31,233 nt of DNA. It comes from a virus. The DNA lies in the IMG/VR virus record IMGVR_UViG_3300022725_000142, positions 1-31,233 of that record; one strand, given 5' to 3'. Made by a program: the position numbers and the translations under genes. Of this stretch, positions 4,952 through 31,233 are shown piece after piece (position 1 is the stretch's first letter; every line of letters begins with the position of its first letter). The notes beneath the pieces are model-generated. The model was not told the DNA's origin, did not search any database, and worked only from the letters and a program-made list of their open reading frames with translations.

Positions 4952-4983
4952 CTACGGGTGAATGTGTGATTGTGGAGGTGATG

Positions 4984-6174
4984 ATGAGTGAGCGGATGTT
5001 GATTTATGCGCCGACGGTGGGGCGGGGCGGCGTTAGGCGGGTTATTGAGACGTTGTGTGCTGACCTAGCGAAACACGATGCGTGGTCGTTTGATGTGCTG
5101 GGTCAGGCGTTTGATGAGTTGGGTGAGCGCGTGGATTGGCCTGAGCAGTTTGGATTTACGCAGGTTCGTCCGGTGGATAGGCTGCCTCTGCACCCAGATT
5201 TGTTTATGTTTCTGATGCAGAAGCGCGGGAATTTTTTTGAGCATTTGAAGCAGATCGCCGGAAATTATGATCTGGTGTTTTGCCCTTCGCCCTGGTGGGG
5301 GTTTATTGGCACTGAGCCGATTGACACACCAGTGGTGAGTTTTGTGCCGGATTTCGCGTTTGACCATATGGACATTGGGTTGATCGGGCAATACTTCCGG
5401 GGGATCAGCCCGATTATTGCACGCCATAGTGACCATGTGATTTTTCCGTCGGATTGGCAGCGTGAGCATGGGGAAACGCATTACGGGTTTGAGGGCAGCA
5501 CTGTGTATTTCAGTGCAGATTATACGGCACGCGATTTTGATGCAGGTTTTGATAATCAACATTCTGTGAGGCTGAAATATCATTTGCCTGATGCATATGT
5601 GCTGGCATTCCACTGCTATGGGCATAAAGCGGCGGAGGTGATTGTGCGGGGTCAATATTATGCCCGGCGGCAAAGCGCCAATGTGCCACCGTTGGTTATC
5701 GCTGGTTTACAGACGGGATATTATGCAGAGCAGCCAGCCGTGAATGAGCATGTGAAAATGGTGCAGGATACGATCCGCGAGTGCAGTGGTGTGGTGGGGC
5801 GTGATGTGTTCATTTTGGGGACTATTCCAGATGAGGATTTGGGGGGGTTGTATGCCGGGGCGGTGTGCAGTGTGACGGCGAGTCGGTCTGAGGGTGGTTT
5901 GAGCGGTACGGTGCTGGAGTCTATTCTAGCGGGTGTTCCGGTGGTAGCGAGTGAATTGCCCGTGTTTACTGAGCGGCTGAGCCATGAGGCGGTTAGTTAT
6001 TTCCCGGTGGATGATGCTGAGGCGCTGGGTGTGGCGCTGGTGCAGGTATGCAGTGATGTGGATGGGTATCGGGAGCGGGCGGGGCGGCTGCGGGATGTGT
6101 TCACGTCATATACACGGCGTGATGTCGTCGCACAGTATATGGGTGTTTTCCGGGAGGTGCTAGATGGGCGCTAG
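4984..6174 (+). CDS. Glycosyltransferase, GT-B fold (GT4-like)
   Basis: About 396 residues from ATG at 4984, chosen because a full Shine-Dalgarno (GGAGGTGAT, 4973-4981) lies just upstream; an in-frame GTG at 4966 is less likely. The N-terminus has the first Rossmann strand and glycine loop (MLIYAPTVGRGGVRRVIETL). The C-terminal donor domain has 'ASRSEGGLSGTVLESILAG' then 'VPVVASELPVF', the E-x7-E signature of retaining GT4-type enzymes. It would transfer a nucleotide-activated sugar to an unknown acceptor. It is the first gene of a tight cassette with the acyltransferase (11-base overlap) and the aminotransferase, set inside the head operon, so late expression is expected. The acceptor may be virion protein or a host surface glycan. 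Confidence 0.85.
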   Translation: MSERMLIYAPTVGRGGVRRVIETLCADLAKHDAWSFDVLGQAFDELGERVDWPEQFGFTQVRPVDRLPLHPDLFMFLMQKRGNFFEHLKQIAGNYDLVFCPSPWWGFIGTEPIDTPVVSFVPDFAFDHMDIGLIGQYFRGISPIIARHSDHVIFPSDWQREHGETHYGFEGSTVYFSADYTARDFDAGFDNQHSVRLKYHLPDAYVLAFHCYGHKAAEVIVRGQYYARRQSANVPPLVIAGLQTGYYAEQPAVNEHVKMVQDTIRECSGVVGRDVFILGTIPDEDLGGLYAGAVCSVTASRSEGGLSGTVLESILAGVPVVASELPVFTERLSHEAVSYFPVDDAEALGVALVQVCSDVDGYRERAGRLRDVFTSYTRRDVVAQYMGVFREVLDGR

Positions 6175-6835
6175 GACGTTGGTGATTTTTGGTGCGGGGG
6201 GGTTTGCGCGTGAGGTTAAACATTTGGCAGGTGAAATGGTTGTGGGTAGTTATGACGGGTATGAGATGGTCGATGAGGCTAATGAGTCTGCTATTCTGGC
6301 GCGAAATTCACCCGTACACGCGGTTATTGGTGTGGGCACTCCGGCACTCCGGCAGAAAATCCACGAGAATTTAGGGTTAGATGATTATGTGCGGTGGGTG
6401 AATCTGTGGCATCCGTCAGTCACGGCGATTCCTCATCAATCTGGCAGTGGCAATGTTTTCTGTGCTGGTGTGCGTATGACGTGTGATATTGAGTTTGGTC
6501 ATCACAACATTTTCAATCTAAACTGTACCGTCGGTCATGACTGCCGGATTGGTGATTACTGCGTGATTTGCCCAGGGGCGCATTTGAGCGGTAACGTGAC
6601 GCTGGGCGATGCTGTTTATGTGGGTACGGGTGCGGTGATCCTAGAGGGTGTTAGTGTGGGTGCGGGTGCGGTGATCGGCGCGGGTGCGGTGGTGACTGAG
6701 GATGTGCCGGCGGGGGTGACGGTGGTGGGTATCCCGGCGAAGGCATTGGACAAAAGTGAGGACAAAAATGAGGACAAAAATGAGGACAAAAATGAGGACA
6801 AAAAAACACGCCCCGTCCGAGGTCGAAAAAAATGA
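6164..6835 (+). CDS. NeuD/PglD-like sugar O/N-acyltransferase
   Basis: 223 residues. The N-terminal Rossmann-like piece (LVIFGAGGFAREVKHLAGE) is the NeuD/PglD nucleotide-sugar binding domain. The C-terminal half is a left-handed beta-helix of hexapeptide repeats (for example GDAVYVGTGAVILEGVSVGA) with the expected catalytic His in 'VGHDCRIGDYCVICPGAHLSG'. These enzymes usually acetylate the amino group of a 4-amino-4,6-dideoxy sugar or a sialic acid precursor. Translation overlaps the upstream glycosyltransferase by 11 bases and the downstream aminotransferase by 4 (ATGA). The C-terminus ends in an unusual lysine/acid-rich tail made by a 12-bp tandem repeat, beyond the usual family end at 'GIPAKAL'. 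Confidence 0.87.
   Translation: MGARTLVIFGAGGFAREVKHLAGEMVVGSYDGYEMVDEANESAILARNSPVHAVIGVGTPALRQKIHENLGLDDYVRWVNLWHPSVTAIPHQSGSGNVFCAGVRMTCDIEFGHHNIFNLNCTVGHDCRIGDYCVICPGAHLSGNVTLGDAVYVGTGAVILEGVSVGAGAVIGAGAVVTEDVPAGVTVVGIPAKALDKSEDKNEDKNEDKNEDKKTRPVRGRKK
6758..6805 (+). repeat. 12-bp tandem repeat, four units, coding for an EDKN tail
   Basis: The unit GAGGACAAAAAT is repeated three times, plus a fourth variant ending in AAA, at the 3' end of the acyltransferase gene. It encodes Glu-Asp-Lys-Asn repeats. The 12-base period keeps frame, so slippage would change the tail length without breaking the protein. Confidence 0.9.
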
Positions 6836-7899
6836 GTATTCCGCTATCGAATGTGAATCTGAGCAGTGTTGAGGTTGGTTATGTCAATGATGCGCTGTTG
6901 AGTGAGTGGATCAGTGGTACGGGCGGTTATGTTACGCGGTTTGAAGCTGCGCTCGCTGAGACGATCGGGCGTGAGCATGTGATTGCCACTGCGAATGGAA
7001 CACTGGCATTGATGCTGGCGTTGCAGGGTTTGGGGATTGGTGTTGGTGATGAGGTCATTGTTCCGGCGTTTACATTCGGGGCGCCGGCTGCGGCGGTGGT
7101 GATGGTGGGTGCAAAACCCGTGTTTGTGGATGTTGACCCGGTGAGTTGGACGATTGATCCGGGATTGGTGGAGACGCAGTTGTCTACCCGAACGGGTGCT
7201 GTTATTGCGGTGGATGTTATTGGGCATCCGGCGGATTATTATGCACTACGTGAGGCGGTGGGTTGTTTGCCGATTATCCAAGATTCGGCGGAGGCGCACG
7301 GGTCTCGATATTGCGGTGAATTATGTGGCAAACAGGGTGATGTGAGTGTGTTTTCGTTCCACGCCAACAAATCTATCAGCACGGGTGAGGGGGGATGTGT
7401 TATGACAGATGACCCCCAACTGGCTGCCCGGATGCGAATGATCGCTAATCATGGGATGTCTGGTCAATATTGGCATGATGTGGTTGGTTCTAACTACCGG
7501 ATGAGCAATCTGGTGGCGGCGGTTGGGCTGGGTCAGGTGCAGCGCTGGTGGCCGCTGATTAGCCAGAGGTATCGGGTTGGGATGTGGTACGACAATTTGC
7601 TGCCTGTTGAAATAAAACGACGGCCACAGCACATCTGGGCGAATATGGCAACGTGGTTGCACTGTGTGTTGTCTGATAATCGTCCTGCTATTTTATCAGC
7701 GTTGAAAAATGCTGATATTGATTCACGGGCGGTGTGGCGCCCACTTCCAGAGATGCCGCCGTACCGTGATGGGCGTGATTACCCGGTTGCCCGGAGTATC
7801 AGTGACCGTGCGTTGTTTCTGCCGACGTGGGCGGGTATGCGACGTGAGCAGGTTGAGGCGGTGGTTCGTGCTATGATGGGTGAAAGGATAGTGACCTGA
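6832..7899 (+). CDS. DegT/DnrJ/EryC1-type sugar aminotransferase (PLP)
   Basis: 355 residues, full length for the family. 'ANGTLALMLAL' (54-64) is the phosphate-binding region, 'VPAFTF' follows, 'QDSAEAHGS' (Asp151) contacts the PLP ring nitrogen, and Lys180 in 'FHANKSISTGEGG' is the Schiff-base lysine. The family transaminates 4-keto (or 3-keto) nucleotide sugars. With the preceding NeuD/PglD-like enzyme this forms the last two steps of an N-acetylated 4-amino sugar pathway (as in PglE then PglD). The dehydratase is absent from the window and would have to come from the host or elsewhere in the phage. Start ATG 6832 overlaps the previous stop. Confidence 0.9.
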   Translation: MSIPLSNVNLSSVEVGYVNDALLSEWISGTGGYVTRFEAALAETIGREHVIATANGTLALMLALQGLGIGVGDEVIVPAFTFGAPAAAVVMVGAKPVFVDVDPVSWTIDPGLVETQLSTRTGAVIAVDVIGHPADYYALREAVGCLPIIQDSAEAHGSRYCGELCGKQGDVSVFSFHANKSISTGEGGCVMTDDPQLAARMRMIANHGMSGQYWHDVVGSNYRMSNLVAAVGLGQVQRWWPLISQRYRVGMWYDNLLPVEIKRRPQHIWANMATWLHCVLSDNRPAILSALKNADIDSRAVWRPLPEMPPYRDGRDYPVARSISDRALFLPTWAGMRREQVEAVVRAMMGERIVT

Positions 7900-11179: not shown

Positions 11180-11198
11180 CAGAATGTCTGTTATCAGA
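11180..11198 (+). promoter_or_regulatory. Degenerate copy of the CAGAAA-N5-TTATCGCA motif
   Basis: CAGAAT-GTCTG-TTATCAGA spans the start codon of the capsid-linked glycosyltransferase. It differs from the consensus motif at a few positions and is a weak instance. Confidence 0.25.
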
Positions 11199-12194
11199 AG
11201 CTGCGCCAATGTTAATTTTTATACGCCGAATGGGTGTAACCCGTACACCGGGTATGGTCGGTTGGAACTGGGCATTGCGAGGGAGTTGCAAAATGCGGGT
11301 GTGCGCCTGAATGTATATCCAGACCCGGATGTGCCGACGCTGGTGATTGGTGCTGCGGAAAATCTATTGTCGGATCATGTGCGGTATACCCGGCGGTATA
11401 TCCTGACGCAGAGCGAAAGTACGGCGGTGTCACCGGAATGGGTTGATTTGCTGAACTGGAATGCTGAGATGGTGTTCGTCACGAACCCGGCGCTGGTTGA
11501 GATTTACGAATCGAGTGGGGTGTACCGTCCGGTGGTGTGTGTGGGTCATGGGGTTGATCTACGTTTTCCAGTGCAGGCGCATGGTTGGGATGGTGAGTCA
11601 CGGTTTGAGTGGCTCACATACAGTTATGGCGATCTGCGAAAAGGTGCTGAGCTGGCTATTCAGGCGTTTAAAATTTTGTACGGTGGTAGTGAGGAACACC
11701 ATCTGACGATTAAATCGCGTGATGGCGCCGGTGTGACGTGGATTCAATCACTGGCAAATAGTAATGATCCGCAAATTACGGTTGTGTTCGGGCAGCAATC
11801 GGAATGGGATTGGATGCAGTTGTTGAGTTCGTCACATTGTTTTTTGTTCCCCAGCCGGGCGGAGGGATTTGGGATGCCGCCGCGTGAAGCCGTGCTGGTG
11901 GGTGTGCCGGCGATTGCTACGCAGTGGCTGGGTATGGCGGATGTGCATCGTTGGGGGCTGCCGATACGAGTTGAATCCATGCGTGAGGCTAAATATGACC
12001 ACTACACTGCTAACCGTAGAGGCGCTGAGTGGGCTGAACCTGATCTGGATCATCTGATAGAACAGATGAAATTTGTACATCAGAATTACGAAACAGCACG
12101 GGAAATGGCGATGCACGGGAAATGGTATATGCATCGGTATAACCGATGGAAAAATGTCGTAGAAAAAATCATGAACCATATGGGGTGTGTATGA
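11184..12194 (+). CDS. Glycosyltransferase (GT4-like) adjacent to the capsid gene
   Basis: 336 residues. 'LTYSYGDLRKGAELAIQAFK' is the typical segment at the start of the donor domain, and 'CFLFPSRAEGFGMPPREA' followed by 'VLVGVPAIATQWLG' is a clear GT4 nucleotide-sugar binding signature. The N-terminal domain begins 'FYTPNGCNPYTGYGRLELG' with the expected glycine loop. It differs from the glycosyltransferase at 4984 in sequence and length, so it is not a recent copy. It lies between the major capsid and connector genes, starts 18 bases after the capsid stop (GAGAGG ribosome site) and overlaps the next gene by 4 bases (ATGA). It must therefore be co-expressed with virion proteins, which makes a capsid protein a plausible acceptor. 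Confidence 0.87.
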   Translation: MSVIRSCANVNFYTPNGCNPYTGYGRLELGIARELQNAGVRLNVYPDPDVPTLVIGAAENLLSDHVRYTRRYILTQSESTAVSPEWVDLLNWNAEMVFVTNPALVEIYESSGVYRPVVCVGHGVDLRFPVQAHGWDGESRFEWLTYSYGDLRKGAELAIQAFKILYGGSEEHHLTIKSRDGAGVTWIQSLANSNDPQITVVFGQQSEWDWMQLLSSSHCFLFPSRAEGFGMPPREAVLVGVPAIATQWLGMADVHRWGLPIRVESMREAKYDHYTANRRGAEWAEPDLDHLIEQMKFVHQNYETAREMAMHGKWYMHRYNRWKNVVEKIMNHMGCV

Positions 12195-14372: not shown

Positions 14373-14873
14373 ATGATGAATGAGCAAAAAATGCAGGTTA
14401 GTTCTGCAAACGATTTTAGACCTACCACGTATTTGTTACAGCTACCGTCTAATCGAGTTGTCAGAATTCGTCAGGTTGACCTGGTAGGTTTATTAGTGAG
14501 CAACGATGGCGACATCCCCGATTTTTTGACTGCTCAGGTGGTGCGGGGAATGACTGGTCAAACCCAGAATGCCGCCAAAATGGACATCAATAGGGATAAC
14601 GTGGTTGAGGTGTTTAAATTTATAAATCTGATAGTAATGGTCGCTGTGGCAGAACCAACTGTAGTGGCATCTGATGCTAAATATGATGAGGGCGAAATCA
14701 ACATTGATGATTTCAGCACTGACGACAAACAATGGATTTTTCAAACCGCACTGCCGCAGGAGGTGGGCGCAGCAATGTCGTTTCATGCGCGGGTCGAGGC
14801 GGCGAATCTGGCAATTGTATCAGGTCGCAAAACTAACAGCGAGTCGTCCATCGCACCTGTTGAATCTGCGTAA
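14373..14873 (+). CDS. Tail assembly chaperone (G-like)
   Basis: 166 residues, start ATG 14373 or 14376 after AGGGGT. It is positioned between tube and tape measure with a small out-of-frame frame immediately after, the usual arrangement of tail chaperone pairs. It contains a Val/Ile-rich helix near 'VFKFINLIVMVAVAEP' and an acidic stretch 'DEGEINIDDFSTDDKQW'. Chaperones of this type bind the tape measure before tube assembly and are not in the virion. The call is from context and composition. Confidence 0.6.
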   Translation: MMNEQKMQVSSANDFRPTTYLLQLPSNRVVRIRQVDLVGLLVSNDGDIPDFLTAQVVRGMTGQTQNAAKMDINRDNVVEVFKFINLIVMVAVAEPTVVASDAKYDEGEINIDDFSTDDKQWIFQTALPQEVGAAMSFHARVEAANLAIVSGRKTNSESSIAPVESA

Positions 14874-14892
14874 TGATTGGGTGGCGTATTGT

Positions 14893-15102
14893 ATGGACAT
14901 CGCTGTTATTACATTTGGCAGCCTGACAGAAAACAAATTATCGCAACGCGGAAAATCAGGCCAGCCTATTTATCGTCTGGAACAACTGCTGGCTGATCCG
15001 CCGCAGCCGGGCGAGCCAAAAAAAATGCCTGTGATTAGTAATGCACAATTGCTGGCGATGGGCATTCCGTTGCAGGTGAAAATACCAGAAAATTCCGGGT
15101 AA
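14893..15102 (+). CDS. Second tail chaperone frame (GT-like) or small tail protein
   Basis: 69 residues if started at ATG 14893, beginning MDIAVITFGSLTENKLSQRG. Its frame is +1 relative to the chaperone upstream and remains open back through 200 bases of overlap. It could therefore be a separate small gene or the T part of a +1 (or -2) frameshift fusion. No classical slippery heptamer stands out. It ends 18 bases before a strong bidirectional terminator. Confidence 0.45.
   Translation: MDIAVITFGSLTENKLSQRGKSGQPIYRLEQLLADPPQPGEPKKMPVISNAQLLAMGIPLQVKIPENSG
14927..14945 (+). promoter_or_regulatory. Dispersed motif CAGAAA-N5-TTATCGCA (coding copy)
   Basis: This lies within the small frame at 14893 and encodes LTENKLSQ. 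The copy in the tape measure gene (18556) encodes a similar peptide, LSENRLSQ, in the same phase. Confidence 0.3.
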
Positions 15103-15120
15103 ATTAGCTACTGAAGCAAA

Positions 15121-15145
15121 AGGCCGTCATTGTGACGGCCTTTTT
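15121..15145. terminator. Bidirectional intrinsic terminator
   Basis: AGGCCGTCA (15121-15129), loop TTG, TGACGGCCT (15133-15141), then TTTT on the plus strand. The reverse strand also has a TTTT-containing tail. It separates the head/tail operon from the convergent minus-strand moron. Confidence 0.85.
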
Positions 15146-15157
15146 AGTTTATGGGTG

Positions 15158-15352
15158 TTAATTCGATTTCTGTTTTTTGCGCCCCGGGCCACCCCACGTT
15201 GCGTCCTGTGGGGGGAGCTGCCCTTCCGTGAGCGCCTCACTCAGAATATCAGCCACCAAACGGCTGATAGTTTTTTGCCGTTTGTCGGCTTCGTCCTGGA
15301 GGCGCTGGTGTAGTTCATCCGATATTGTGGATGTAATCCGCACTCTATTCAT
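15158..15352 (-). CDS. Ribbon-helix-helix (CopG/Arc-type) DNA-binding protein
   Basis: 64 residues from the ATG at 15352. An earlier in-frame ATG would add ten residues, but the shorter start gives the canonical RHH beginning. 'NRVRITSTISDELHQRLQDE' is the beta strand plus first helix, and 'ADKRQKTISRLVADILSEAL' is the second helix. RHH proteins bind DNA as dimers through the strand and often autorepress their operon or serve as antitoxins. The gene overlaps the end of the acidic-protein gene by 8 bases (ATGAATAG), so it is translationally coupled. The C-terminus is basic. It is the best candidate to bind the direct repeats at the operon promoter. Confidence 0.8.
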   Translation of the reverse strand: MNRVRITSTISDELHQRLQDEADKRQKTISRLVADILSEALTEGQLPPQDATWGGPGRKKQKSN

Positions 15353-16184
15353 CCTCAGTTTTGTCATGCACTGCGCGTGCAATGACCATATAGTATAATT
15401 CTCTGGTAATTTCTACCCACTCCGAGAAATAACGTGAGTCGTTTTCCTCATCCTCCTCCTCATTTTCCAAATATGCATAGACCCGGATGTCCTCATAGCT
15501 GCTCTCAATATCAAACCGCCAGCCGGGGAGTTCCCACCAATCGCTAACGAGTTCTATGATTTGGCTGGCTGTGGTGGGTTCGCTGTCGCCCAATCTGTCA
15601 TCTACTGGTTGATACAGGGTTTCAGCAGGTGCGTCGTCAACCTGGTCGGCATCGTCAACCAGGTCGTCGTCGTCAACCTGATCGCGGTATTGATGTGCAA
15701 CCACAATTGAATACATACCATATTCGCATTTAGTCCATTTTGAAAACAATCGTGAATCTTGTTCTTCATCCTCCTCGTCGTCTTCCAAATATGCATACAC
15801 CGACACAGTCCCATCAACAGATTTTTCGACATTCAATTGCCAGAATGGGTATTCCCATGAACCAACAGTCAATTCAATTTCACGCAGGGTCATGGGTTCA
15901 GTTGAGGAACTGATGTGTTCTGTTGGGCGGTAGAGGGTTTCAGCAGGTGCGTCGTCAACCTGGTCGTCGTCGTCAACCTGGTCGTCGTCGTCGTCAACCT
16001 GGTCGTCGTCGTCGTCGTTATCCAACGGACGTGCGATGAGTTCATCGTCCTCATAGATGCCGTCGGTATCTGCTGTGAAATCCCCATCCGGGTTCAGTTC
16101 GATGTAGTCATCAATTGTAACCTCAACTGCATCACCGTATTTGTCACTGATGTTGATGTATGTTACCGGGTTATTAGATGTCAT
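15345..16184 (-). CDS. Highly acidic protein with a tandemly duplicated domain
   Basis: 279 residues, no family recognised. It consists of an N-terminal 50-residue acidic region and two copies of a roughly 95-residue unit. Each unit has an Asp-rich linker (QVDDAPAETLY), a Trp-bearing segment (GSWEYPFWQLNVEKS in copy 1, DWWELPGWRFDIESS in copy 2), a 'VYAYLE' strand, an Asp/Glu run, and 'DSRLFSKW' or 'DSRYFSEW' followed by a hydrophobic end. The linkers come from GTC/GAC triplet runs, which look prone to in-frame expansion. The charge is strongly negative, as in DNA-mimic or anti-restriction proteins, but that role is only a hypothesis. It is on the opposite strand to the tail genes, with its own promoter, and so is a moron likely expressed in the lysogen. 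Confidence 0.75.
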   Translation of the reverse strand: MTSNNPVTYINISDKYGDAVEVTIDDYIELNPDGDFTADTDGIYEDDELIARPLDNDDDDDQVDDDDDQVDDDDQVDDAPAETLYRPTEHISSSTEPMTLREIELTVGSWEYPFWQLNVEKSVDGTVSVYAYLEDDEEDEEQDSRLFSKWTKCEYGMYSIVVAHQYRDQVDDDDLVDDADQVDDAPAETLYQPVDDRLGDSEPTTASQIIELVSDWWELPGWRFDIESSYEDIRVYAYLENEEEDEENDSRYFSEWVEITRELYYMVIARAVHDKTEDE

Positions 16185-16237
16185 TAGATTTTCTCCTGTT
16201 TTTTTGCGCTGGCTTCATTGCCGCGCTCTATATTTAA

Positions 16238-16279
16238 ATTATACATCAAGTGCTGCTCTTGTCAATAACCAAGTGCTGC
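16238..16279 (-). promoter_or_regulatory. Strong sigma70 promoter with direct-repeat operator
   Basis: On the minus strand: TTGACA (16265-16260), a 16-base spacer and TATAAT (16243-16238), both hexamers perfect. GCAGCACTTG occurs twice (plus-strand positions 16247-16256 and 16270-16279), once in the spacer and once upstream of the -35. The copies are 23 bases apart, about two helical turns. It drives the acidic-protein/RHH operon. Confidence 0.8.
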
Positions 16280-16358
16280 AATTTACGAAATTCATTTTTG
16301 CGAGTATTGCCCAAAAAAACAATTTAATTCACTAACGTTATAGTTGCGGATTTCATTT

Positions 16359-18701
16359 ATGCGATTAGGCCGGGCGCGGAATGCTACGCCCGTGCGGGTG
16401 AATGCGGTGACTAGTGATGGCGTAAATCTGGGTAGCGCCTACGGGCAGATTATCCTCAGTGACAACGTGGATGAGGCGGTGAACCGGGCGCAGCAGGCGT
16501 TTGACCGGGGCATTAGCTCGATTGGCCGGAGTATGCAGAGCCTCGGTGATTCCATGGTCGGGATGGGATCGCGGATCACCGCGTTGACTGCACCAATTGC
16601 CGCATTTGGCGCAACGGGCGTGAATGCGGCGATGCGTTTTGAAAACGCGCTGGTTGAGATTGGCGCACGGGCGCAGTTGGCCGGGGCAGAATTAGAGTTA
16701 GTTCGCGCAAAAGCCCTGGAAATCGGGCGGGACACTCAATTTTCTGCTGGGCAGGGTGCAGAGGCGTTTTTGCAACTGCTCACCAGTGGTCAGAGCGTGG
16801 AAGAGGCGTTTGCGACCATTGACTCTGTTATTTTGGGTGCGGCTGCGTCCGGCGAGGAACTAGGTTTTGTCTCTGATGCGCTAACGGACATTATGGCGCA
16901 ATTTGGGTTAGCGGCCGATGATGCGTCAATGATCCTCCAGACGCTGACCAATGCGGCCTCTGCGTCATCGGCGTCATTTAGTGACCTGGTAGCGGGTTTC
17001 CAGAATTCTGGTGGTACGGCTGCGCAGGCCGGAATGTCTGTTGAGCAATTGGCGGCTACACTGTCGGTGTTATCAGAAAACGGTATCAAAGGGAGCGAGG
17101 CCGGCACGGCGCTACGCTCCACGTTGAATGCGCTGCAACGTGATACTGAGGATGTGATTGCTACGATGGATTCTCTGGGCATCAGTTTGTTTAATGCTGC
17201 GGGGAATGCACGCCCGATAGAGGATGTTTTTCAGGACATTCAGGATGCCACCGCAGGCATGACTGACGAACAGCGTATTGCTGTATTTAACAACCTGGCG
17301 GACGCATATGCACGTCAGGGTCTGGCCGCGTTGACCTCTGGTGATGGCATCGACGAGATGATGGAGGCTATGCGTGACGGCGCAAACGTGACGGACATCG
17401 CCGCGAGCCGAATGGATACGTTTGACGGCTCGGTCAAATCACTGATGGGGTCGATTGAGACGCTACAGATTGAGGTATTGACACCGTTCATGAACAACAC
17501 GCTGCAACCGTTGGTTGAGCAGATAACGGGAATCACCAATCGTGTAACAGAGTGGGCGAAGCAAAACCCGGAACTCGCAAACACTATCGTCATGATTGGT
17601 GCGGGGCTGGTGACGCTGGGGCCATTGTTGATTGCGGCTGGTACGGCAATTAGTGCAATTGGTGGAGCGCTGGCATTTGTACTGTCGCCGTTGGGGTTAA
17701 TCGTCGCGGCGGTGGCGGCGGTTGGGCTAGCGATTGTGACCGATTTCGGCGGTGTGAGGACATGGATTCAGGCTAATCTATTGCCGGTATTGAGCCAGTT
17801 GGGTGAATGGTTCACAACGAGTGTTCTGCCGCAGATGTCTGAGGCATGGCGTGCGTTTTCCGGGCTGCTGGCATCTGTTTGGGAGGAAATCGGCCCGGCG
17901 TTGGGTCAGTTAGCGAACTGGTTTGTCGTTGATGGCATCCCATTGATGCAGAGTACAATTGAGCAGATTTTTATTCCAGCGTTGAATTTAATGATTGATA
18001 TTCTGGTAGGCCTGTGGGATTTAGTAGGGCCGGTGTTGGGCAATCTGCTGACGTGGTTTGTGGAGACAGGTTTGCCGGCTGCGACGAATTTTTTGAATGA
18101 AATAGCTATACCGGCGATTAGCAGCCTCATCAGTATATTGAGTGGATTGTGGGGTGAAGTGCAGGTGCCGTTGACACAATTCCGTGATTTTGTGGTGGGT
18201 ATTTTTGAGGAGATTATTGGTTGGATTGAGGATACAATCGGGAAATTCAATGATGCGATAACAGCTATTCAATCTGGAGGTGGATTGAACCGTACCGGGC
18301 AGGGCAATGGCGGTCTGTTTGGGTCTGGGTTGGGACCTGATTTTGATCCGATTGGCGGGATACGTGATGTTTTCGACAGTGGTGGTCAGGCTGCCCCGAA
18401 TTCGATTGCTCATGTGGGGCGGGGGCAAATGGGCCGGGAGGTTTTTGCGGTTGGCGATCAGGGCGGGACATTTTACCCTGATTTCATGGACAACCTGACC
18501 CGGATGGTAGCGAATGTAGTTAGTAGCCGTGAATTACCAGCAGCCGGCAACCTATCAGAAAACAGGTTATCGCAGGCTGGCCAACAAATTATTGTAAATA
18601 TTGAGGTGCCGTTGGATGTTCTACGCAATGAACCGGGATTAGAAAACAATGCTGAAACACTGGCACAGTCTATTCAAAATGCTATTAGGAGGCGTGGATA
18701 A
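16359..18701 (+). CDS. Tape measure protein
   Basis: About 780 residues from ATG 16359; a TTG at 16344 and GTGs near 16389-16395 are alternatives, and none has a clear ribosome site. Features are: N-terminal helical heptads; a TP901-type minor tail region ('IGRDTQFSAGQGAEAFLQLL', 'SENGIKGSEAGTALRSTLNA', 'GSVKSLMGSIETLQIEVLTP'); a long hydrophobic stretch from 'TIVMIGAGLVTLGPLL' through 'LIVAAVAAVGLAIV'; Trp-containing repeats ('LGEWFTTSVLPQM', 'LANWFVVDGIPLM', 'LLTWFVETGLPAA'); and a Gly-rich C-terminus. It sets tail length and helps DNA entry; a tail of roughly 100-120 nm is implied by the usual residue-to-length relation. A REP-like palindrome is embedded in the first codons. TAATG couples it to the next gene. 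Confidence 0.88.
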   Translation: MRLGRARNATPVRVNAVTSDGVNLGSAYGQIILSDNVDEAVNRAQQAFDRGISSIGRSMQSLGDSMVGMGSRITALTAPIAAFGATGVNAAMRFENALVEIGARAQLAGAELELVRAKALEIGRDTQFSAGQGAEAFLQLLTSGQSVEEAFATIDSVILGAAASGEELGFVSDALTDIMAQFGLAADDASMILQTLTNAASASSASFSDLVAGFQNSGGTAAQAGMSVEQLAATLSVLSENGIKGSEAGTALRSTLNALQRDTEDVIATMDSLGISLFNAAGNARPIEDVFQDIQDATAGMTDEQRIAVFNNLADAYARQGLAALTSGDGIDEMMEAMRDGANVTDIAASRMDTFDGSVKSLMGSIETLQIEVLTPFMNNTLQPLVEQITGITNRVTEWAKQNPELANTIVMIGAGLVTLGPLLIAAGTAISAIGGALAFVLSPLGLIVAAVAAVGLAIVTDFGGVRTWIQANLLPVLSQLGEWFTTSVLPQMSEAWRAFSGLLASVWEEIGPALGQLANWFVVDGIPLMQSTIEQIFIPALNLMIDILVGLWDLVGPVLGNLLTWFVETGLPAATNFLNEIAIPAISSLISILSGLWGEVQVPLTQFRDFVVGIFEEIIGWIEDTIGKFNDAITAIQSGGGLNRTGQGNGGLFGSGLGPDFDPIGGIRDVFDSGGQAAPNSIAHVGRGQMGREVFAVGDQGGTFYPDFMDNLTRMVANVVSSRELPAAGNLSENRLSQAGQQIIVNIEVPLDVLRNEPGLENNAETLAQSIQNAIRRRG
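16372..16391. repeat. REP-like palindrome inside the tape measure start (copy 3)
   Basis: GGGCGCGGAATGCTACGCCC, followed by GTGCGGGTGAATG, aligns with copy 1 at 4932 and its right flank. It contributes the codons for GRARNATPVRVNA at the N-terminus, or it lies in the leader if the true start is farther on. Confidence 0.5.
18556..18574 (+). promoter_or_regulatory. Dispersed motif CAGAAA-N5-TTATCGCA (coding copy)
   Basis: This lies in the tape measure gene about 130 bases before its end and encodes LSENRLSQ. It matches the copy at 14927 in motif, spacing and codon phase. Confidence 0.3.
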
Positions 18702-24815: not shown

Positions 24816-26030
24816 TTAAAAACAAAATTGGATACGATTTGATAACAGTGCGGCACCCATGTTTTCGGGGTCTCCAATGTACCTCGCGGTGGTGGCGAGG
24901 TTTTTGTGCCGTAGCTGTCTACTGATGTTATTGAGAGGAATATTTAGATCGTTAGCGCGGGCGGTGTATGTGCGGCGCAGATCGTGCGGGTTGAGGTCTA
25001 TGCCGAGAGCGGTATTGGCACGGCGCATGATTATGTCACGGAGGGCGACACGGGACAAACCATTTTTAGGCGTGTATTGGGAGTGCAGCGATTCTGGGCA
25101 ACCGCGACGGAGTGGCTGCCAGATGGGTGTATGTTCGTCGATGTAACGTGGGTCAGGTTCGCCGTTGGTGTCTGGATCAGGTTCGCCGTTGGTGTCTGGA
25201 TCAGGTTCGCCGTTGGTGTCTGGATCAGGGAGGGCGGCGTTGAACGCATTTACCCATGCGTGGATGAGATTTACAGCCGTTGTATCGACTGCGACAGGAT
25301 CGGTCTGGCCGCGTTTGCCGCGCACGGTAATTTCATAGGGGGATGTTTCGCCTGGTGTGATGCTGGACAGTGTGACGCGGGACATTTCTGAAATACGCAG
25401 AGCGCTGGTGATGCCCAGATAGGTCAGTGCCAGATCGCGGAGTGCATCCAGACCACCCGATGCGCTGATGCTAGCGAGCAAATCGTTAATTTGATCCACC
25501 CGTAGGCGGGTGCCGTACCGATAGAGTGCTGAACGGGTGGAGGACTCTGTAGGTTTGGGTGGTTTAATATCCAGAGCGTCGTTAATGGCGTGGCGGTAGT
25601 CTTCAACCTGGTCACGCACATCGCCGGTGAGACCTGGAATGTGTTGTTTCCTGAGTGCGTTCAGCCAATGCCGAATGGGTGCAAAATATCTGCCGATGGT
25701 TGAGGCTGCCCTTCCGGTTGCACGCAGGTGACCTCTGAAATGAACCATCACCGCTTGAGTCGGTAGTGGCATTGGCATCCTGACGAGCTGGTGAATGTCG
25801 GTATCAACGGGTGAGTCAGTGAGCCAGGCCAGAAAATAGCGCAGGCTGGATTCGTAGGCGCGGGCGGTATGTTTTTCGGGTGTATCATGCGAGGGCAGGG
25901 CGACGATGTGACCTACCACCGACTCGAGGGCGGCTTGTGGATCAAAATATTTGAGCCAGTCGGTATCGATTGCCGATCCGGGCTGTGGAATGTGTATAAT
26001 TTGAGTTGGCATAGTCAGATGTTGATTCAT
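24816..26030 (-). CDS. Tyrosine recombinase with a repeat insertion
   Basis: 404 residues from the ATG at 26030, chosen because AAAGGAG lies just upstream; the frame continues farther but without a ribosome site. The N-terminal SAM-like domain is at about 40-170. The catalytic domain is complete: Arg in 'GITSALRISEMSRV', Lys in 'VRGKRGQTD', HxxR in 'NPHDLRRTYTARAND', His in 'LRHKNLATTARY' and the nucleophile Tyr in the same segment. Between the Lys strand and HxxR lies an unusual linker, PDPDTNGE repeated three times. It resembles host Xer-like or mobile-element integrases more than the recombinase at 27054. It could resolve dimers of an extrachromosomal prophage or act as a second integrase. 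Confidence 0.88.
   Translation of the reverse strand: MNQHLTMPTQIIHIPQPGSAIDTDWLKYFDPQAALESVVGHIVALPSHDTPEKHTARAYESSLRYFLAWLTDSPVDTDIHQLVRMPMPLPTQAVMVHFRGHLRATGRAASTIGRYFAPIRHWLNALRKQHIPGLTGDVRDQVEDYRHAINDALDIKPPKPTESSTRSALYRYGTRLRVDQINDLLASISASGGLDALRDLALTYLGITSALRISEMSRVTLSSITPGETSPYEITVRGKRGQTDPVAVDTTAVNLIHAWVNAFNAALPDPDTNGEPDPDTNGEPDPDTNGEPDPRYIDEHTPIWQPLRRGCPESLHSQYTPKNGLSRVALRDIIMRRANTALGIDLNPHDLRRTYTARANDLNIPLNNISRQLRHKNLATTARYIGDPENMGAALLSNRIQFCF
25153..25224. repeat. 24-bp tandem repeat, three copies, inside the recombinase
   Basis: The unit TCAGGTTCGCCGTTGGTGTC plus TGGA is repeated perfectly three times (25153, 25177, 25201). It encodes PDPDTNGE units on the minus strand. Perfect copies imply recent expansion, and the period keeps frame. 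Confidence 0.95.
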
Positions 26031-26103
26031 CACAAAATCTCCTTTTTGGTAGGCGTAGGTTGTAATAACGGTTTTTCTGTCAATCTGAGACGAGAAAAAC
26101 GGG

Positions 26104-26126
26104 AGACCCCTGAAATGGGGTCTTTT
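26104..26126. terminator. Intrinsic terminator-like hairpin
   Basis: AGACCCC (26104-26110), loop TGAAAT, GGGGTCT (26117-26123), then a T-run on the plus strand. The reverse strand has TCCC then TTTTT a few bases on. It lies between the zinc-ribbon gene and the recombinase gene on the minus strand. Confidence 0.55.
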
Positions 26127-26157
26127 GCTTTTGGCGGAGTGCTTAACCCCACCCCCA

Positions 26158-26177
26158 GCCCCTCCTAGTAGAGGGGC
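26158..26177. repeat. C-rich REP-like hairpin, second copy
   Basis: GCCCCTC (26158-26164) pairs with GAGGGGC (26171-26177) around CTAGTA. With the hairpin at 24742 it brackets the recombinase gene in the same orientation (C-rich arm first). Confidence 0.55.
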
Positions 26178-26189
26178 GTTTGTGCCCAT

Positions 26190-29948: not shown

Positions 29949-30746
29949 ATGAACATCGTAACACTACTGAATGAAAAGGGCGGGGTTGGTAAAACAACGA
30001 TCTCGCGCCACATCGCGGCGGGTCTGGCGATGCGTGGTGAGCGGGTGGTGGTGATTGATGCAGACGCGCAGGCCAACTGCACGTCCCAATTCCAAATTCC
30101 GGAGGGGAACGGGTTATATGAGCTACTGGTGCATGATGCGGAGTGGAATTCAGTGGTACGCCCGGTTGATCCGTCGGTATTCGCTGGTGGTGATGGGTGC
30201 GCTGGTGAGCTTTATCTTGTGCCTTCGAACGTGGAAACGCGGTTGATCCCACTGGCGATTGATGACACAACCCTGTTAAACGAGCGTGTGCGGGAACTGG
30301 CGGGATGGGCTGATGTGGTGGTGATTGATACATCGCCGACGCCATCACTGCTGCACGGGATGATCTACACGGCTACGGATTGGATGGTTTACCCGACGAT
30401 GTGTGAACTGCTGAGCCTGGAGGGGCTGCGGAAATCGGTGGAGCGGCTGGATGTGCTGAACAAAAACAAACGAGCGTATGGTCTGCCGGAAGCGCATTTG
30501 ATGGGCATCCAGCCGACGATGTACGACCCGCGCACGAATGCTCATGATTATGGGCTGAGTCTGTTGCTGGAAAATTTCAAGCGCAGGGCGTGGCCGGCCC
30601 TGCCGACGCGGACGATATGGCGGGATGCGGCATTTGCCCGTAAAACGATTTTTGCCTATGAGACCAAGGACAATAAAGCGAAATTCGAGGTTGAGACGCA
30701 GATATGGGCACTGGTTGACCGGGTACAGAACGGGATGGGTGCGTGA
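29949..30746 (+). CDS. parA: ParA partition ATPase
   Basis: 265 residues, ATG 29949 behind GGGAGG. Deviant Walker A 'NEKGGVGKTT' (8-17, signature Lys10 and Lys15), Walker A' 'VVVIDADAQANCTS' and Walker B 'VVVIDTSPTP' define a ParA/Soj-type ATPase without an N-terminal HTH (small, type Ib-like). 'HGMIYTATDWMVYPTMCELL' is the usual region after Walker B. ParA moves ParB-bound plasmid copies over the nucleoid. It overlaps parB by one base (TGATG). In a temperate phage it points to plasmid-like maintenance of the prophage. Confidence 0.92.
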   Translation: MNIVTLLNEKGGVGKTTISRHIAAGLAMRGERVVVIDADAQANCTSQFQIPEGNGLYELLVHDAEWNSVVRPVDPSVFAGGDGCAGELYLVPSNVETRLIPLAIDDTTLLNERVRELAGWADVVVIDTSPTPSLLHGMIYTATDWMVYPTMCELLSLEGLRKSVERLDVLNKNKRAYGLPEAHLMGIQPTMYDPRTNAHDYGLSLLLENFKRRAWPALPTRTIWRDAAFARKTIFAYETKDNKAKFEVETQIWALVDRVQNGMGA

Positions 30747-31233
30747 TGGGGGGGTATAAGGGCGACAAGGGCAATCCATTTGCCAGTAGGAATGAGCCTG
30801 ATACGTCGCTGGCAAAAATGGATATGGATATTTACGGGGGGAGTACGCCTCCCCCCAGTGGGCGGGTGGTGAGTACACCGATTAATCTGCTGGACATCTG
30901 GTTTGATCCTAGCCAGCCGGCTAGTCGTATTCCATCCAAGATACGGAAACAATGGGACGGTGACCCCAGTGGTGCGAAAGATTTACTGAATCGCTGGCAG
31001 GACGAGTGCCAGCGTTATCTGGAACAGGGCGAGTCGTTGTATGCATCGCCCATTCTGAAAAAAGACCCGGTGAACGGTTTTATTCAGATTGATGAGGAAA
31101 AGTCAAACCCGTTGGTGCAGTCGTTTGTGAGGCTGATTAAGCTGGGAAGTTCTATCCGTGATGATGGACTGTTGAACCCGGTGACGGTGAAAAGGCGTTC
31201 CGGCGGGGGATATGTACTGCACACGGGCGAGAG
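30746..31233 (+). CDS. parB: ParB-like partition protein, 3' partial
   Basis: At least 162 residues, cut by the window end. ATG 30746 shares its A with the parA stop (TGATG). After a low-complexity N-terminus ('GGYKGDKGNPFASRNEP'), 'STPINLLDIWFDPSQPASRI' and later 'LIKLGSSIRDDGLLNPVTVK' followed by 'RRSGGGYVLHTGE' resemble the ParB N-terminal (Srx-fold) domain, including the 'GLLNPVTV...Y.L..GE' core. An insertion of about 60 residues separates the two parts. The HTH and dimer domains would lie beyond the edge. Confidence 0.8.
   Translation, partial: MGGYKGDKGNPFASRNEPDTSLAKMDMDIYGGSTPPPSGRVVSTPINLLDIWFDPSQPASRIPSKIRKQWDGDPSGAKDLLNRWQDECQRYLEQGESLYASPILKKDPVNGFIQIDEEKSNPLVQSFVRLIKLGSSIRDDGLLNPVTVKRRSGGGYVLHTGE

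Follow-up and report, generated by a model that had tools for sequence, protein, structure and literature searches.

A moron-type operon pairing a highly acidic tandem-domain orphan protein with a probable ribbon-helix-helix protein in a probable Anaerolineae phage

The virus record IMGVR_UViG_3300022725_000142 (positions 1 to 31,233; the window hereafter is this whole stretch of 31,233 bases) carries two minus-strand ORFs between its tail chaperone and tape measure genes, one encoding 279 aa (15345-16184) and the other 64 aa (15158-15352). Judged by comparison with related genomes, the pair is a moron-type insertion, and it probably forms a real, functional operon with an orphan product. Our best explanation, to which we assign a probability of roughly 0.4, is a self-repressed moron operon whose first product, an acidic protein making multivalent contacts, attaches to a basic surface on some host protein, probably one involved in defence. 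Anti-defence is thus the leading guess for the acidic protein and not a result, and the target and role that we infer for it are uncertain, since the protein has neither a homologue in the collections searched nor a usable structural model.

An insertion between tail chaperone and tape measure

Profile searches identified terminase, portal, head, tail-chaperone and tape-measure genes in the window, together with two tyrosine-recombinase genes. The window probably represents a temperate siphophage; the two recombinases fit a temperate lifestyle. Relatives of its tape-measure protein occur in two Anaerolineae MAGs, and the host is therefore probably a member of the Anaerolineae (Chloroflexota).

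The insertion is flanked by the overlapping chaperone frames (14373-15102) and by the tape measure gene (16344-18701; PhageMin_Tail, E 1.5e-41), and these annotated flanks and the ORF coordinates agree with an opposite-strand insertion at this position, as the sequence-only reading had proposed. In the six closest relatives that were found (L002, L003, L008, L009, L010 and L011, all phages or prophages), the chaperone/tape-measure junction lacks the pair. In L002, whose tape measure is 64% identical in the best segment, a gap of 106 nt separates the end of the second chaperone frame (7873) from the start of the tape measure (7980); the junction in L010 is longer (about 330 nt) and contains no ORF of a similar kind. 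The flanks are too diverged among the relatives to place the exact ends of the insertion. Because the pair is missing from the junction in all six relatives, we regard it as a moron-type insertion. Horizontal acquisition and independent transcription characterise morons (PMC6469090). At the sequence level, the locus has both its own promoter (a perfect sigma70 site) and its own terminator (a strong hairpin). The earlier description of a moron operon therefore holds, given these signals, the opposite orientation and the empty junctions. Moron cassettes of lambdoid and other temperate phages similarly consist of one or more extra genes, with their own promoter and terminator, that lie between conserved late genes and are missing in relatives, whereas the present locus is in the opposite orientation and comprises two genes, including a probable regulator, with an orphan product.

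Predicted transcription signals and the probable ribbon-helix-helix protein

The promoter, TTGACA-16-TATAAT at 16265-16238 on the minus strand, matches the sigma70 consensus at 12 of 12 positions and is the sole 12/12 match in the window. Of 3000 shuffled versions of the intergenic stretch, 1 contained a perfect promoter, as did none of 60 shuffled versions of the window, which upholds the perfect promoter claimed previously. Transcription from this site would cover the acidic gene first, preceded by a ribosome-binding-site-like AGGAGA, and the ribbon-helix-helix (RHH) gene second. The 8-base overlap that had been described between the two genes exists if the RHH gene starts at the ATG at 15352, but disappears if the alternative GTG at 15343, 9 nt after GAGG, is used.

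Two exact 10-bp direct repeats, CAAGTGCTGC, which the earlier reading had not recorded, flank the -35 box 23 bp apart, one just upstream of it (16270-16279) and the other in the promoter spacer (16247-16256); the window has no further copy, even when one mismatch is allowed. By themselves these repeats are only modest evidence, since 33 of 3000 shuffles (1.1%) of the intergenic stretch also contain a direct repeat of 10 bp, and their placement around the -35 box adds to it. They are likely to be the two halves of a candidate operator. As RHH proteins often bind tandem repeats, we propose autorepression, and regulation of the operon by its own RHH protein at this candidate operator is plausible.

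A perfect 12-bp hairpin with T-runs (15118-15144; fold z -5.3) lies 3' of the RHH gene and is a probable terminator. Because its T-run is longer and better on the plus strand, it may serve both directions, in which case a terminator would also be present between chaperone and tape measure. The terminator postulated before corresponds to this real and strongly folding hairpin, but it lies outside the interval 15158-16279 to which it had been assigned.

The 64-aa protein (15158-15352; pI 9.4) matches Pfam RHH_5 with an E value of 2e-4 and 21.4 bits, below the cut-off of 26, and two PHROG families of Arc-like repressors with E values of 2e-4 and 5e-4. These matches are weak but consistent, and they favour the RHH assignment made from sequence inspection, although the RHH_5 score itself falls short of the Pfam threshold. 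Its relatives comprise three weak matches in genomes of Anaerolineae and one on a plasmid of Nostoc, and no acidic partner was evident in the neighbourhoods inspected. In acr-aca operons, the accessory gene comes first and the DNA-binding regulator second, with repeats overlapping the promoter, and the present locus shares this arrangement. It differs in that the regulator is an RHH protein, whereas all Acas we know of are helix-turn-helix (HTH) proteins, in that the repeats are direct and not inverted, and in that neither member of the pair matches a known Acr or Aca family in NCBIfam or PADLOC. A further parallel is mobC-nic of plasmid RA3, where a regulator listed as ribbon-helix-helix is reported to repress its own bicistronic operon (PMC4175270); both would be self-repressed bicistronic RHH operons, with a different partner gene and a predicted repression in our case.

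The acidic protein and its possible roles

The first gene (15345-16184) encodes a protein with a pI of 4.05 and a net charge of -70, composed of 86 acidic (52 Asp, 34 Glu) and 16 basic (5 Lys, 11 Arg) residues among its 279. Its charge per residue is -0.251, compared with -0.096 for the next most acidic of 31 genes. An unrecognised N-terminal region (residues 1-57; 16014-16184; net -14) is followed by an Asp-rich QVDD linker (15951-16013; net -15), a first repeat domain (residues 79-168; 15681-15950), a second such linker (15633-15680; net -9) and a second repeat domain (residues 185-274; 15363-15632). Together the linkers contribute -24 of the net charge and the two poly-acid runs, one per repeat, another -17; outside the acid run, core 1 carries only -3 and core 2 -10.

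The two 90-aa repeats are 46% identical in alignment, and the acid run is conserved in both. With the linkers, the acid run and the APAETLY motif common to both repeats left out, their similarity still reaches a z of 13.5 (0 of 5000 shuffles), and by this comparison the repeats are a true duplication. Between the repeats, dN/dS is 0.34-0.40 (three methods) in the frame of the acidic protein, whereas in that strand's other two frames dN is larger than dS. Translation of the acidic frame and maintenance of the repeat domain by purifying selection are thus well supported. Codon preference of this ORF alone is uninformative, with a score not clearly above antisense controls. The QVDD linkers are encoded by 18/21-nt tandem repeats, so that their length may vary through slippage; from this we infer that the acidic protein would be a flexible multivalent binder. 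A tandem 24-nt repeat (3.4 copies, 98% matches; 25149-25229) is also found in the integrase gene (24816-26189), where it encodes DPDTNGEP repeats, an unusual acidic insertion for a recombinase. Since the integrase too has such a repeat-encoded stretch, this phage may be prone to repeat expansion in general.

No meaningful match to the acidic protein or its parts was found in Pfam, PHROGs, NCBIfam, PADLOC or PDB. Likewise, no relative was detected in viral contigs searched with the whole protein, the repeats and the N-terminus, in genome contigs, or by tblastn in phage and plasmid collections; the pattern-based scans of these collections can detect only close relatives. The marginal matches in 396 Anaerolineae and 400 Chloroflexota genomes were discarded as short acidic stretches reflecting composition, two of them in frames with an internal stop. 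The architecture first read from the letters, two copies of an unrecognised acidic domain joined by Asp-rich QVDD linkers, thus stands, in view of the identity between the repeats and the uniformly negative profile and collection searches. AlphaFold models, both for the complete protein (mean pLDDT 38.1) and for a single repeat (44.8), are too poor to use. The repeat model has, at low confidence, a helix-strand-strand order, and this order resembles the alpha-beta-beta-alpha sandwich of Phage_ABA_S (PF18066). The likeness is a lead only: no profile match to the family appeared at E up to 10, and a comparison using a thin profile of two rows did not support it either.

In the explanation that we favour, a two-gene unit with its own transcription would have entered the late tail operon of a temperate siphophage. 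The RHH protein would probably bind the pair of direct repeats that brackets the -35 box and repress its own operon, and expression would come as a burst on phage entry with a low level afterwards. The acidic protein, which carries a small domain in duplicate on flexible poly-Asp linkers, would probably act in the cell rather than in the virion, where it would bind multivalently to the basic surface of some host protein, most likely a DNA-handling defence protein. We consider it doubtful, though worth stating, that the protein founds a new class of multivalent acidic anti-defence proteins in phages of uncultured Chloroflexota, with a duplicated orphan domain, repeat-encoded and possibly length-variable poly-Asp linkers and an RHH autoregulator as a new kind of Aca. 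If it does block defence, it would be a counter-defence protein of unusual design, with repeat-encoded acidic linkers, from phages of a scarcely studied phylum, and the RHH gene and operator could then be used as bait for finding more; if it blocks no defence, the locus is one more orphan accessory pair.

The anatomy of the locus would be the same for a host-interaction or lysogenic-conversion moron that is not directed at defence and that works by superinfection exclusion or by binding a basic factor of the host, for example a nucleoid protein, a polymerase or an SMC complex. For such binding, a viral DNA mimic reported to inhibit MukBEF offers a precedent (PMC7617805), whereas the acidic protein has, by eye, no membrane-like segment or signal peptide in its sequence. 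We regard this alternative as rather unlikely.

A stricter form of the leading explanation holds that the protein is a true DNA mimic, in which a phosphate-like carboxylate array on the folded domains fills the groove where a restriction, CRISPR or other nuclease would hold DNA. The antirestriction proteins Ocr and ArdA are likewise very acidic proteins of phages or mobile elements, and the excess of acidic residues here, with an acid run conserved in both repeats, can be set beside the 34 acidic and 6 basic residues of Ocr in 116 aa (PMC4872106). In contrast to these proteins, the charge is largely located in linkers and poly-acid runs of a tandem-domain architecture, and no Ocr, ArdA or Acr family match was found in Pfam, NCBIfam or PDB. 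With so much of the charge in repeat-encoded linkers and one run per repeat, and so little in the rest of core 1, the specific claim of mimicry is weakened. Charge in loops would nevertheless be compatible with it, since the acidic residues in the loops of Ocr matter most for its activity (PMC4872106). On balance, true mimicry appears distinctly unlikely.

The acidic linkers might instead be products of GTC-repeat slippage in a non-functional or drifting orphan ORF, as their tandem-repeat coding, the lack of homologues in every collection searched and the uninformative codon preference would allow. The low dN/dS between the repeats compared with the other two frames, the perfect promoter and the AGGAGA before the start all argue against drift, which we consider very improbable. 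A toxin-antitoxin pair, which the sequence-only reading had entertained and which is weaker still than DNA mimicry, is likewise very improbable: RHH antitoxins are common and one weak Anaerolineae relative of the RHH protein (L028, 34% identity) adjoins an ORF that by eye resembles a PIN toxin, but the acidic protein matches no toxin family in profile searches, its charge of -70 and Asp-rich linkers are unlike any toxin known to us, the gene order is reversed, with the partner first and the RHH gene second, and the RHH protein has just a short basic tail as a toxin-binding region.

Other features of the phage

At the end of the window (29949-31231), a gene for a ParA-like ATPase (AAA_31, E 2e-26; 29949-30746) is followed by an overlapping, contig-truncated ORF that is ParB-like by eye; ParB is expected directly 3' of ParA. 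Together with the two tyrosine recombinases, these genes suggest either a phage-plasmid or a phage that encodes a partition system of its own, with Anaerolineae as the probable hosts. The RHH protein was considered as the partner of the ParA-like protein and dropped, as 14 kb lie between the two and the position right after ParA is taken by another ORF.

The second, overlapping frame of the tail chaperone gene is offset by +1 (or -2) in all five phages compared (14373-15102 in the window, 7141-7873 in L002, 7130-7916 in L003, 7165-7900 in L008 and 2317-3022 in L010). Most of the five have similar residues around a PSxxLxL motif, and no slippery sequence shared among these genes was evident. 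The constant offset and the similar residues suggest programmed frameshifting that differs from the usual -1 type.

The major head protein, used as a query in a collection scan, retrieved no further relatives. Possible further accessory genes lie among the head genes (4966-6174, 6832-7899 and 11184-12194), with glycosyltransferase-like (phrog_2170) and aminotransferase-like (phrog_3139) assignments, and a 12-nt tandem repeat that is almost perfect (4.8 copies, 97% matches) is located at 6748-6804, close to the end of the ORF 6164-6835.
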